Below, piece after piece: positions 34,563 to 38,401 of a stretch of DNA of 64,000 bases. The notes under the pieces were generated by a model, which saw only the letters and a list, made by a program, of their open reading frames with translations, made no database searches and was not told the DNA's origin. Position 1 is the stretch's first letter. Each line of letters begins with the position of its first letter. Both the position numbers and the translations under genes were made by a program. Location: contig AP024683.1 of NCBI GenBank assembly GCA_025999455.1, forward strand, positions 3,412,451 through 3,476,450. Direction: 5' to 3'. Source of the DNA: Geminicoccaceae bacterium. GTDB lineage: Bacteria; Pseudomonadota; Alphaproteobacteria; Geminicoccales; Geminicoccaceae.

Positions 34563-35297
34563 TCAACGCCAGAGATCGGCCGGAAGCGTCCGCCGCACCG
34601 GCACGGCGACGCCGATCCGCCGCCCCTCGTAGAGGATGCTGCCGAGATGGACCGCGACGACGTTCCAGCCGGTCGCAGCGGGGACGAGGAGCGGCGCGCC
34701 GGACAGGCCCTGGTGCGCGACGCAGCCGTGGAGCAGGAGGCCCGCGGGGCCGTTCGGTTCGATCGGGCAGGGCTCGAGGCGGACCGGCAGATGGGGCCGG
34801 TCCTGCGCGTAGCCGAGGAGCTGGGCGGCCCGGCCCGCATCCGGCCGTCCCCCCGGCCAACCCACGGCCAGCGGCTGCAACAGGTCGAGGTCGAGGAGGG
34901 CCCGCTCCAGCCGGAGCACGGCCCAATCGGCTTCGAGCCGCGTGGGCAGGCCGCGTGCGTCGAAGGCGAGATCGGGGGCGAGACGAAAGCTCGCGGCACG
35001 GGCGTGGGCGACGTAACGGCCGCGCCGCCAGCCGGCCACGAAATGGACCTCGTCGGGATCGTAGAGCCGGCCTCGGCGCGGATGGCGCAGGCAATGCGCG
35101 GCGGTCAGCACCTCGGACGGGCCGACGAGCGTGCCCGTACAGAAGCCGTGCGGGACGTTGACCCGGCCGATCGCGTTCCAGACGAAAGCGGGCTCGACCG
35201 GCTCGGGGGCGGCGAACGCCGGGGAGCCGCCGAGAAGACCGACCGTGAGGAGGAACGCGGCGACGGCACTGCGCGCGGAAGGCTTGCCGCTGGGCAT
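34563..35297 (-). CDS. secreted trypsin-like (S1) serine protease
   Basis: Exported protein of 244 residues: signal peptide (ARSAVAAFLLTVGLLGGSPA), then a chymotrypsin fold with the triad visible as His68 (VLTAAHC), Asp124 (EADWAVLRL) and Ser199 (HQGLSGAPLL). The serine loop is GLSGAP and not the usual GDSGGP, as in several bacterial V8- or glutamyl-endopeptidase-like relatives. The pair CxxxC around GFCTG and TAAHC supports a disulfide. An ATG at 35312 is an alternative start adding five residues. The gene is divergent from the glutathione S-transferase. Confidence 0.88.
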   Translation of the reverse strand: MPSGKPSARSAVAAFLLTVGLLGGSPAFAAPEPVEPAFVWNAIGRVNVPHGFCTGTLVGPSEVLTAAHCLRHPRRGRLYDPDEVHFVAGWRRGRYVAHARAASFRLAPDLAFDARGLPTRLEADWAVLRLERALLDLDLLQPLAVGWPGGRPDAGRAAQLLGYAQDRPHLPVRLEPCPIEPNGPAGLLLHGCVAHQGLSGAPLLVPAATGWNVVAVHLGSILYEGRRIGVAVPVRRTLPADLWR

Positions 35298-35369
35298 GGC
35301 GGGGCGCAGCATGCGGGCACCGGCGGCGGGCGGCAAGCGACGGGTCGGCCGCGGGCGGGGAGTGGCGTT

Positions 35370-36578
35370 TTGGGTTGGACGATCTGGTGGTCGAAGGGGA
35401 CCGGGGCGTGGGCGCCCCAGCTCTGCCTCGAGGAGGCGGGCGTGGCCTACGAGCGGGTCGAGGTCGACACCCGCGCCGGCACGCAGAACACCCCGGGCTA
35501 CCGCGCGCTCAATCCCCTGGGCCAGGTTCCAGCGCTCGGTCTGCCGGACGGCACGGTGATCACCGAGAGCGCCGCCATGGTCCTCCACATCGCCGACTGT
35601 TTCCCGCGCGCCGGCCTCCTCCCGGAGCCGGGCACGGCGGCGCGGGCGGTGGCGCTGCGCTGGCTCCTGTTCGGCGCGACCCAGCTCTACCCGGCGGCCC
35701 TGCGCTATTGGTACGCCTCCCGTTACACGAACGACCCGGCCGGGGTGCCGGGCGTTCAAGCGGCGGCCCTGGCCGAGCTCGACCGGGATTTCGCGGTCCT
35801 CGACCAGGCGCTCGATCCCGGGCCTTGGATCCTCGGCGAGCGGTTCTGCGCGGTCGACTACTACCTCTTCATGCTCGGCCTCTGGCATCCGGCGCGCAAA
35901 GCGATCCTCGACCGCCATCCGCGGCTCGGCCGGCTCATGCGCGCGGTGCGGCGGCGACCGGTCGTCGAGCGGCTCTGGCCGCAGCATTACCCGATCGAGG
36001 GGGCCATCCCTGGTCGACCTGGACCGGCTCGAGCGCTACCTGATCGGCGCGGCGCGGGCCCGCCGCACCGTCACCTATGGCGAGCTCTTGCGGGCCTTCG
36101 GCCGCCGCCCGGCACCCCGCAACGTGGCGGCGCTCTGCCGCGACCTCGGCCGCCTGGAGGTGCTGCTGCGTCGGCGCGGCGTGCCCGATCTGGCCTGCCT
36201 CGTGGTCCGAGCGGCCGACGGCCTGCCCGGGGTCGGCTGGTTCGCGAGCGAGCGCCGGACCGGCGCCTTCGACGGCCCTCTCGACGGCCCCGACGCGCTC
36301 GCGCACCTGCGCGCCTGCCAGGCGCGCGCCTTCGCCTGGGCCGCGTCGATGCGGGCTGCCTCAGCCGGGGCCGAATCGGTCGTTGCGCTCGGGCAGCGGC
36401 CGGGCGAGCAGGCCGTGCGGGCGGAGGAGGAGGACGAGGGCCAGGACCGCGAAGGTCGCGACGTCGCGCCAGGTGCCGCCCAGGACCGCGGTCCAGCCGG
36501 TCTCGAGCGCGCCGATCAGAAGACCGCCGAGCGCCGCACCGTGCACCGAGCCGAGCCCGCCCAGGATCGCCGCCGTGA
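35370..36578 (+). CDS. glutathione S-transferase family protein with unconfirmed 3' end
   Basis: The first ~210 residues are a complete GST: N-terminal thioredoxin-like domain (TGAWAPQLCLEEAGVAYERV, ALNPLGQVPALGLPDGTVIT, ESAAMVLHIAD) and an all-helical C-terminal domain (LGERFCAVDYYLFMLGLWHP). The start is a TTG with GGGGAG 7 bases upstream. At the point where GSTs normally end (about 36000) the frame meets no stop and stays open to 36578, giving an Arg/Pro-rich tail that is only the shifted reading of the next domain. A run of five G at 35999-36003 is a likely indel site. The biological end is therefore unclear. Confidence 0.75.
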   Translation: MGWTIWWSKGTGAWAPQLCLEEAGVAYERVEVDTRAGTQNTPGYRALNPLGQVPALGLPDGTVITESAAMVLHIADCFPRAGLLPEPGTAARAVALRWLLFGATQLYPAALRYWYASRYTNDPAGVPGVQAAALAELDRDFAVLDQALDPGPWILGERFCAVDYYLFMLGLWHPARKAILDRHPRLGRLMRAVRRRPVVERLWPQHYPIEGAIPGRPGPARALPDRRGAGPPHRHLWRALAGLRPPPGTPQRGGALPRPRPPGGAAASARRARSGLPRGPSGRRPARGRLVRERAPDRRLRRPSRRPRRARAPARLPGARLRLGRVDAGCLSRGRIGRCARAAAGRAGRAGGGGGRGPGPRRSRRRARCRPGPRSSRSRARRSEDRRAPHRAPSRARPGSPP

Positions 36579-36720
36579 GCCCCTTGAGGCCGAGCAGGAA
36601 GCCCGCCTCCGGCCCGAGCGTGCCGAACGCCAGGAGGAGGATCGTGCCGGCGACGCCGGCCGCGGCACCGGCGAGGGCGAGGCAGTGGACGCGCAGCCGG
36701 TCGGGATCGACGCCCGATAG
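36010..36720 (+). CDS. unrecognised domain ORF overlapping the GST 3' end (start and end uncertain)
   Basis: In the +1 frame after the GST, 36010-36360 encodes a protein-like sequence: LVDLDRLERYLIGAARARRT, VTYGELLRAFGRRPAPRNVA, CLVVRAADGLPGVGWFASER. This composition and amphipathic pattern do not look like a shadow reading; I do not recognise the family with confidence. No ATG or GTG is near the beginning (CTG at 36010, TTG at 36088), and the frame then runs on antisense to the permease until 36720. It may be a separate small gene or a domain fused to the GST and split by a frameshift. Confidence 0.45.
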   Translation: MVDLDRLERYLIGAARARRTVTYGELLRAFGRRPAPRNVAALCRDLGRLEVLLRRRGVPDLACLVVRAADGLPGVGWFASERRTGAFDGPLDGPDALAHLRACQARAFAWAASMRAASAGAESVVALGQRPGEQAVRAEEEDEGQDREGRDVAPGAAQDRGPAGLERADQKTAERRTVHRAEPAQDRRREPLEAEQEARLRPERAERQEEDRAGDAGRGTGEGEAVDAQPVGIDAR

Positions 36721-37674
36721 CGCCACCATGCCCGGATCGTCGGCGGCGGCGCGCAGCGCCCGGCCGAGCGCGGTGCGCGCGAGGAGGTGGTGGATCGCCG
36801 CCCAGGTGAAGAGCGCGCCCAGCACGATCGCCACCTGGCGGCGGCTCGCGATCACCTCGAAGCCCTCGACCTCGAGGCGCCAGGCGGGCTCGGCCAGGAG
36901 CGGCGGCAGCCAGCGCTCGCGCGCGCCGGTGGCGAGGCGGAGCCCTTCGCGAAGGACGAGCGAGAATCCGAGCGTGGCGACCAGCGGGGCGAGGCCGGGG
37001 ACGGTCCAGATCCGGCGCGCCGCACCGCTGCCGCTCCACCCCGAGGCGAGGGCCGCAGTCGAGGCGGCGAGGAACGCCGCGAGCGGGACGGCGAGCGCGA
37101 GCGGCAAACCGAGCGTGCCCGAGAGGCCGACCACGGCCACGAGCGCCGCCGCCGCGGCCAGCCCGGCCAGATCCCCCATGGCCAGATGCAGCCGGCCGGT
37201 CAGCGACCAGACCAGCGTGAAGGCCAGGGCGAGGAGCGTGTAGGCGGCGGCCACGGCGGCACCGTTGATCGCCTGCTGGAGGAGCAGGGCCGCGGGCGGC
37301 GGGCGTGCGGCCGGCGCCGCGGCGGGCCGGAGCGCCGGGCGGTCGAGCAGGACCGTCTCCAAAAGGACCAGCGCCGCGCCGCCGAGCGGCTCGCCATCGG
37401 GCAGCCGGACGGCCACGAGGCGGGGCGGATCGAGCGGTCCTCGGGGCGGGGCGAAGCCGCAGCGGAGCGTGCGCTCGGCCGGATCCGGGCCGGCCGTCCG
37501 CCAGCGCAACAAGACCTCGAGCTCGCCGTGCTCGGCGCGGACCGCGGCCGCGGCCGGCGGCTGCGCCTCGACCCGCGCCAGCACCGCCCGGCAGAGGCGC
37601 TCGCGCGGCCCCTCGACCGCGGCACAGCCGGCCAGCAGCAGGGCCGCCGCGAGCCCGGCCCGTTTCCCGACGAT
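36361..37674 (-). CDS. branched-chain amino acid ABC permease (LivH type) with lipoprotein-like N-terminal domain
   Basis: The last ~290 residues are a LivH permease: QQAINGAAVAAAYTLLALAF, LHLAMGDLAGLAAAAALVAV, ADDPGMVALSGVDPDRLRVH and LTAAILGGLGSVHGAALGGL. Before it lies a ~130-residue extracytoplasmic domain that starts with a lipobox-like leader (AGLAAALLLAGCAAVEG), a layout I recall from other alphaproteobacterial liv permeases. No ATG, GTG or TTG precedes the leader in frame; the coordinate given is an ATC codon 14 bases after a GGGAGGA. A GTG near 37584 would remove the leader. No LivM, LivG, LivF or LivK partner adjoins it. Confidence 0.7.
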   Translation of the reverse strand: MVGKRAGLAAALLLAGCAAVEGPRERLCRAVLARVEAQPPAAAAVRAEHGELEVLLRWRTAGPDPAERTLRCGFAPPRGPLDPPRLVAVRLPDGEPLGGAALVLLETVLLDRPALRPAAAPAARPPPAALLLQQAINGAAVAAAYTLLALAFTLVWSLTGRLHLAMGDLAGLAAAAALVAVVGLSGTLGLPLALAVPLAAFLAASTAALASGWSGSGAARRIWTVPGLAPLVATLGFSLVLREGLRLATGARERWLPPLLAEPAWRLEVEGFEVIASRRQVAIVLGALFTWAAIHHLLARTALGRALRAAADDPGMVALSGVDPDRLRVHCLALAGAAAGVAGTILLLAFGTLGPEAGFLLGLKGLTAAILGGLGSVHGAALGGLLIGALETGWTAVLGGTWRDVATFAVLALVLLLRPHGLLARPLPERNDRFGPG

Positions 37675-37747
37675 CGCGGCTCTGGCGGTCCTCCCGGACG
37701 CTCTGATAGCGTACCCGGTCGGGGGACGAGGGTCCGGGAGGTGCGAG

Positions 37748-38401
37748 GTGGGGAGCCGATTCGGGTCGTCGGCCGGGCTCGCGGGACACCTCACGCGGCT
37801 GCTCGGCCTCGTCGCGCTGATCTGGGCGGGATCCCCCGCTTCGGCACGGGCCGCGCCTCTCCTCACGGCAGGTCTCGAATTCAGTGACGAGGAAGGTGGC
37901 GTGGTGCTGCACGAGGCCTTCGGCAGCGGCACGCCCGAGGATCCGATCACCCTCGTCGAGGACATCACCGAGGACGGGCCGGCGGTCGTGACCGTGCGCG
38001 GCATGCGCACCTCGTTCGGCAACCGCGCCGCCCCCGGCCACGGTGTGGGCTTCGTGCTCGTGAAGATCGTCCGCAACCTCACGAGCCGACCTTGGCACAG
38101 TTTCGAGATGGAGGTGCGGGAACGGCGCGGCCAGCCCTCGACCTTCGAGGACGGGATCTCGTTCGGCCAGGCGATGGGCGGGGAACGGGTGTTCGGCTCG
38201 GACCGGTTCACCGAGCTCCGGCAGACCGACGAGCCGCTCGATGCCGTCGTCTTCAGCGGTGCCACGATCCTCCCGGGTGAGACCGTCACGGTCCGGGTCG
38301 TGGTGACCGATTTCTCCCCGAACTGGCAATTCTACATCCTGCAGCGACGCGACGCCCCGCTCGCCGGGCTCGAGGTCGAAGGCGGAGCCTCGCTGCGTTG
38401 A
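37748..38401 (+). CDS. secreted conserved hypothetical protein
   Basis: Exported protein of 217 residues with a signal peptide (LTRLLGLVALIWAGSPASARA). The mature part is beta-rich: LEFSDEEGGVVLHEAFGSGT, EDPITLVEDI, GHGVGFVLVKIVRNLTSRPW, FEMEVRERRGQPSTFEDGI, WQFYILQRRDAPLAG. It looks like a conserved alphaproteobacterial periplasmic protein that I have no function for. GTG start with GGGAGG 6 bases upstream. Its stop overlaps the TTG of the Crp/Fnr gene, suggesting co-expression. Confidence 0.8.
   Translation: MGSRFGSSAGLAGHLTRLLGLVALIWAGSPASARAAPLLTAGLEFSDEEGGVVLHEAFGSGTPEDPITLVEDITEDGPAVVTVRGMRTSFGNRAAPGHGVGFVLVKIVRNLTSRPWHSFEMEVRERRGQPSTFEDGISFGQAMGGERVFGSDRFTELRQTDEPLDAVVFSGATILPGETVTVRVVVTDFSPNWQFYILQRRDAPLAGLEVEGGASLR

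Follow-up and report, generated by a model that had tools for sequence, protein, structure and literature searches.

The glutathione S-transferase (GST) reading frame that runs on without a stop, and the protein-like domain that begins in the next frame, are supported by our comparisons as two overlapping genes and not a fusion. The first gene encodes a cytosolic GST started at TTG 35370, whose intact form, as carried by two congeners, has its TGA stop 34 nt into the second gene (gene 2). In the window, the whole stretch of 64,000 nt that was analyzed, the GST frame would leave the ancestral frame at 35997-36003, miss this TGA and continue to 36578. Gene 2 would stand alone, belong to an unnamed alphaproteobacterial family and be translated from CTG 36010, with the preceding purine run presumably serving as its Shine-Dalgarno site and its translation probably coupled to that of the GST. 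For its product we predict a small protein that binds DNA and is folded like the C-terminal domain of O6-alkylguanine alkyltransferase, but without the catalytic cysteine motif. Taken as a whole, this account of an overlapping GST and a CTG-started alkyltransferase-fold gene, with an indel in the GST and no fusion, is one that we hold with good confidence. The window is part of a one-contig genome of 3.76 Mb, and the assembly is 99.69% complete. The features discussed below are as follows.

35357..35362, plus strand: GGGGAG, the Shine-Dalgarno-like site of the GST, with the TTG 7 nt downstream (from the sequence)
35370..36009, plus strand: GST coding region, start TTG 35370, conserved as far as the purine run (Pfam, congener identity, dN/dS)
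35997..36003, plus strand: purine run GAGGGGG, also the Shine-Dalgarno-like site of gene 2, one base shorter than in both congeners (congener alignments)
36010..36043, plus strand: overlap of the two genes in both congeners (GST TGA position in loci L040 and L041)
36010..36345, plus strand: gene 2, conserved part of 112 amino acids, probable start CTG 36010-36012 (relatives' start, alignment, model, dN/dS)
36346..36720, plus strand: gene 2 frame continuing past its conserved part, unconserved and, from 36361, antisense to the permease (codon scan, ORFs)
36361..37584, minus strand: convergent branched-chain amino-acid permease gene (PF02653, E 9e-31); 37584 is the limit of the stretch searched, and the start is not fixed

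The ORF listing bore out the frames given in the preliminary description of this DNA. The GST frame remains open through the five-G run at 35999-36003 and, counting from TTG 35370, first meets a stop at TGA 36576-36578. A second coding frame does begin at 36010 (translation LVDLDRLERYLIGAARARRTVTYGELL...) with neither ATG nor GTG, as had been described, and TTG is missing as well. This second frame is open from 35560 to 36720, and the first ATG, GTG or TTG after its upstream stop is TTG 36088. A codon-usage scan trained on long ORFs within the window showed the coding signal leaving the GST frame for the second frame near 36000; from 36360 on the signal was highest on the minus strand. Both frames are under selection. 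Comparison of three same-genus species gave dN/dS ratios of 0.10-0.14 for the GST frame (35382-35990, all three pairs) and 0.15-0.40 for the second frame from 36010, while each region's two remaining frames had ratios above 1.

The product of the first gene is a GST, with both the N-terminal and the C-terminal domain: GST_N_2 (E 1.7e-12), GST_N, GST_N_3, GST_C_3 and GST_C all scored over the Pfam cut-offs. The start region is shared with congeners: at the window's positions G005 carries GGAGG and TTG, and G004 GGAGG with ATG/GTG. Identity of the GST is 90% to the G004 copy and 86% to the G005 copy, each of which lies directly before gene 2; no other match to the GST exceeded 40% identity.

The congeners also show where the GST should end. 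In G004 and G005 it closes with ...HYPIEGGHPWSTWTGSSGS followed by TGA, and the end of this stop lies 34 nt beyond the first base of the gene 2 CTG. The window retains the matching TGA at 36041-36043, out of its GST frame; in the ORF listing it closes an ORF of the third frame, which ends at 36043. The window GST lacks its stop because one indel in 35997-36003 shifts the frame past that TGA. The preliminary description had proposed a one-base indel, and the alignments support it: at 35997-36003 the window is one base shorter than both congeners, with a single isolated gap against each. Across the window, genic or otherwise, we counted 37 net frame-changing indel clusters relative to three congeners, nearly all of them multi-gap. 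Six were single gaps (36001, 37873, 39145 and 45498 against G004; 35997 and 44173 against G005), and only the pair 36001/35997 represents the same event in both congeners.

GST selection is as strong as between the congeners, and the base change is therefore either recent or an artefact. We lean towards a sequencing or assembly error as its cause; a recent real mutation is a serious, if somewhat less probable, option. Were the difference real, the strain could make a GST with a 190-residue run-on tail, and we regard this as possible though rather doubtful. The one-contig, nearly complete assembly speaks for it, as does the finding that 36001/35997 is the sole isolated event common to two congeners, so that the window is not littered with errors. 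Set against this, a run of five G is a usual place for sequencing indels, the GST shows no relaxation of selection, and the tail would overlap both gene 2 and the permease gene.

An indel hiding a fusion of the GST with a further domain, the first of three readings offered in the preliminary description, was not borne out. What the indel hides is the GST's own stop, and in both congeners the GST runs into gene 2 in a different frame from that of gene 2. No GST-gene 2 fusion was found in the family loci compared, where a GST match adjoins gene 2 only in the two congeners. Homologues had been suggested as a place to look for a fused GST-domain protein; they yielded none, and the compared loci outside the two congeners gave no hit to this GST beside gene 2. 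A fused product might still be made by programmed ribosomal frameshifting on the purine run, since gene 2 lies after a G run, in an overlapping frame and without a canonical start, and the congeners would require a -1 shift. We consider this highly improbable. The slippery run is not conserved, reading GAGGGGG in the window, GAGGGAGG in G004 and GAAGGGGG in the third species; the frame relation in the window differs from that in the congeners; and gene 2 is free-standing, with no adjoining GST of this kind, in the other loci compared and in G002. The combination of a conserved slippery sequence and a conserved frame relation that marks a programmed -1 frameshift was thus absent from the three species. 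Of the three original readings, two genes with unusual signals is the best supported, in that the genes share sequence at their junction and CTG is the probable start of the second. The third, a real frameshift in the strain, is the real mutation weighed above against a sequencing error. The preliminary description had named, as what would tell against it, relatives with two separate genes having clear stop and start codons; the relatives do have two genes and a clear GST stop, but the start codon would be CTG.

We compared start codons in 20 loci whose N-termini could be aligned, 16 outside the genus and 4 within. The count omits loci L023, L024 and L042, whose N-termini do not align with the window's; L004, L005, L026 and L027 duplicate L040 and L041. 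Outside the genus, the codon aligned with CTG 36010 is ATG in 6/16, GTG in 5/16 and TTG in 2/16. The other 3/16 are L009, with CTG and a TTG two codons before; L021, with GCG and an ATG one codon before; and L022, with GTC. Within the genus the position is CTG in all four loci (window, G002, G004 and G005). GAGGGGG, GAGGGAGG or GAAGGGGG stands 6 nt before the CTG in the three genus loci that have the GST, while no Shine-Dalgarno-like run precedes it in G002, which lacks the GST at that place. Both marks of a CUG-initiated gene, register with relatives' starts and a Shine-Dalgarno-like site, are therefore found, the site only in the three GST-bearing loci. The second frame, described earlier as having no ATG or GTG at its beginning, is thus not devoid of a start signal: a CTG occupies the relatives' start codon and a Shine-Dalgarno-like run lies 6 nt upstream of it.

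These alignments suggest that gene 2 likely starts at CTG 36010. The start is likely and not proved, because two congeners offer alternatives: G002 has a GTG 60 nt upstream of the CTG and no Shine-Dalgarno-like run, and G004 has in-frame TTG codons at -36 and +9 relative to the CTG. In G005 the nearest upstream in-frame ATG, GTG or TTG lies 414 nt away. PMC5622118 reports a switch to CUG for 2 of 61,358 ancestral AUG starts, and for 1 of 5,080 GUG starts; with switches so rare there, a conserved CTG start would be unusual. In vitro, according to PMC11497404, neither of the fMet-tRNA variants tested initiates efficiently on CUG.

The overlap itself looks to be under double constraint, judging from the alignments. 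Among 53-column stretches in 35382-36345, three-species identity is highest at the junction (48/53, starts 35980-35984), against a mean of 38.8. Base 36019 differs silently in both frames, giving CTG or TTG (Leu) in gene 2 and ACC or ACT (Thr) in the congener GST frame.

The same comparisons bear on whether gene 2 is decaying in the genus, its start lost and its frame only a relic. Such decay would fit the non-canonical start in all four genus members that have the gene, the run-on C-terminus in the window, and the lack of a gene 2 match in G001 and G003. It is nevertheless improbable in our judgment, as dN/dS between species is 0.15-0.40, variable columns fall mostly at codon position 3 (61, vs 25 and 29 at the other positions), the window, G004 and G005 have no internal stop or frame break, and the Shine-Dalgarno-like run is kept in the three GST-bearing loci.

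The downstream end of gene 2 has a different history from the end of the GST. In blastn the congener DNA ceases to match at 36343 and 36348, and the match resumes at ~37850-37866; where the window has ~1.5 kb, from 36343 to 37866, G004 has 187 bp and G005 about 319 bp. The gene 2 frame stops after 161 codons in G004 and 163 in G005. The permease segment is absent at the corresponding place in both congeners, and its best relative among 21 genomes searched has 38% identity. Because this segment, absent in the congeners, follows the conserved part of gene 2, the missing stop of gene 2 is an event separate from the indel. The earlier claim that neither frame has a stop near its expected end is accordingly true of both frames, but the two absences have separate causes: an indel and a downstream segment that the congeners lack at this place. 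The permease gene (36361 to ~37600, minus strand) seems to carry a lipoprotein-like N-terminal extension.

Matches to gene 2 were present in 21/60 genomes in the relatives search and in 20/31 genomes in the family search. In L008, L011 and further loci gene 2 is free-standing, with genes for a conserved protein of secreted type and a regulator of the Crp/FNR type after it. Loci L012 and L013 have gene 2 divergent to a protease resembling the window gene at 34563, and in G002 it adjoins the same protease gene with no GST between. The window's protease-like gene (34563-35358, minus strand) has no Pfam match; we take its TAAHC and GLSGAPL to be trypsin-type motifs. On the simplest account gene 2 is the older gene, the GST arrived in front of it in part of the genus, and an overlap of their ends followed; alternatively, G002 may have lost the GST.

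Several other family members were observed in passing. Four matches lie in a row within 1.6 kb in G228 (C1:964827-966404, minus strand; L153 and L154) and are tandem paralogues in one alphaproteobacterial genome. A 123-codon relative on a Sphingomonas daechungensis plasmid (NZ_CP060781.1, L044 3977-4348) is labelled 'ribose-phosphate pyrophosphokinase', although neither its size nor its fold supports that name. A contig from a viral collection (IMGVR_UViG_2551306370_000001, L043 3001-3168) has a weak relative, with 40% identity over residues 12-71. Overall, phage records contained no gene 2 match, plasmid records one, and viral contigs this one weak relative.

The profile search proposed in the preliminary description for the gene 2 domain gave no Pfam or NCBIfam match over a cut-off. 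Below the Pfam cut-offs, the hits were PF23161 (E 0.045) and PF01035 (E 0.07), and a PHROGs search returned nothing convincing. HTH_RNase_II was dropped as a candidate, being seen in 2/21 members at E 0.045 at best, and an oxysterol-binding protein found by PDB sequence search (best E 0.42) was taken as chance. A structural model built from four sequences is confident (mean pLDDT 90.9). In Foldseek searches with this model, O6-alkylguanine-DNA alkyltransferases (AGT) and alkyltransferase-like (ATL) proteins ranked first, none significantly (E 0.69 or worse). VIA-align placed the AGT/ATL family in 25/26 rows with Z >= 2 (best Z 6.3), with the tool's warning of a possible common arrangement; its top ten rows aligned 82-90 residues at rmsd 3.4-5.3.

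Profile comparison gave a similar picture. We used an alignment (A5) of 27 gene 2 family members, which leaves out most of the later-found loci. Aligned by hhalign to 23 alkyltransferase domains, it gave a probability of 53-57%, and the local score of 28.6 exceeded all 300 column shuffles (maximum 24.3). A MarR control scored 19.6, also above its own shuffles (maximum 17.7), and hhalign run with the global flag gave no excess over shuffles. In AGT/ATL proteins we take the base-flipping tyrosine to be Y114 in the human protein and Y25 in Atl1, and the arginine finger to be R128 and R39, respectively. The tyrosine of TYGEL (Y23) is invariant in 27/27 members and hhalign aligns it to the invariant tyrosine of the 23 AGT domains. 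Arginine at window position 37, where a finger was sought, occurs in just 4/27 members (counted by eye). ATL proteins have the PCHR motif with the cysteine replaced, usually by tryptophan, and P[W/A]HR was found in 0/27 members. PMC10779285 describes the base-flipping tyrosine on which Y23 falls and gives PCHR, with its nucleophilic cysteine, as the active-site motif of AGT. PCHR was likewise found in 0/27 members, and the window site reads ACLVV. From the model and these alignments we read the gene 2 product as a putative distant AGT relative that may bind DNA but would be unable to carry out the known alkyl-transfer reaction. A separate alkyltransferase domain of the ordinary kind is encoded in the same genome at C1:1004205.

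A CTG start and a one-base indel in the preceding gene together hide a selected protein from gene callers that rely on ATG, GTG and TTG. If the CTG is used, the genus offers a natural case of a rare start retained across species. Neither Pfam nor NCBIfam gave a match to the family in these searches, and one public relative bears the unsupported enzyme name mentioned above. As to function, a conserved weak CTG start inside the 3' end of the GST might keep a non-catalytic alkyltransferase-fold protein low and GST-coupled, joining electrophile detoxification to the reading of DNA alkylation; we offer this as speculation, more likely wrong than right by a wide measure.

Each part of the locus can be set beside a known system. 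Like the cytosolic, GstA-like GSTs, the first gene product has both GST domains, but it matches NF007831 (E 1.6e-26) below NCBI's cut-off and is not GstA by that measure. The gene 2 product resembles the AGT C-terminal domain and ATL proteins in its predicted fold, at a sub-threshold level, and has the TYGEL tyrosine; like ATL it would be a single small domain; it differs in a long second helix and a C-terminal helix, and in having neither PCHR nor PWHR. As in short same-strand overlaps with translational coupling, the first gene has its stop within the second and the second has its Shine-Dalgarno-like site within the first, whereas here the second gene would start with CTG and, in the window, the frame of the first is broken. 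As in bacterial genes that start with CUG, the gene 2 CTG is in register with relatives' canonical starts and has good Shine-Dalgarno spacing; in contrast to the very rare switches reported in PMC5622118, this CTG is kept in four species of one genus.
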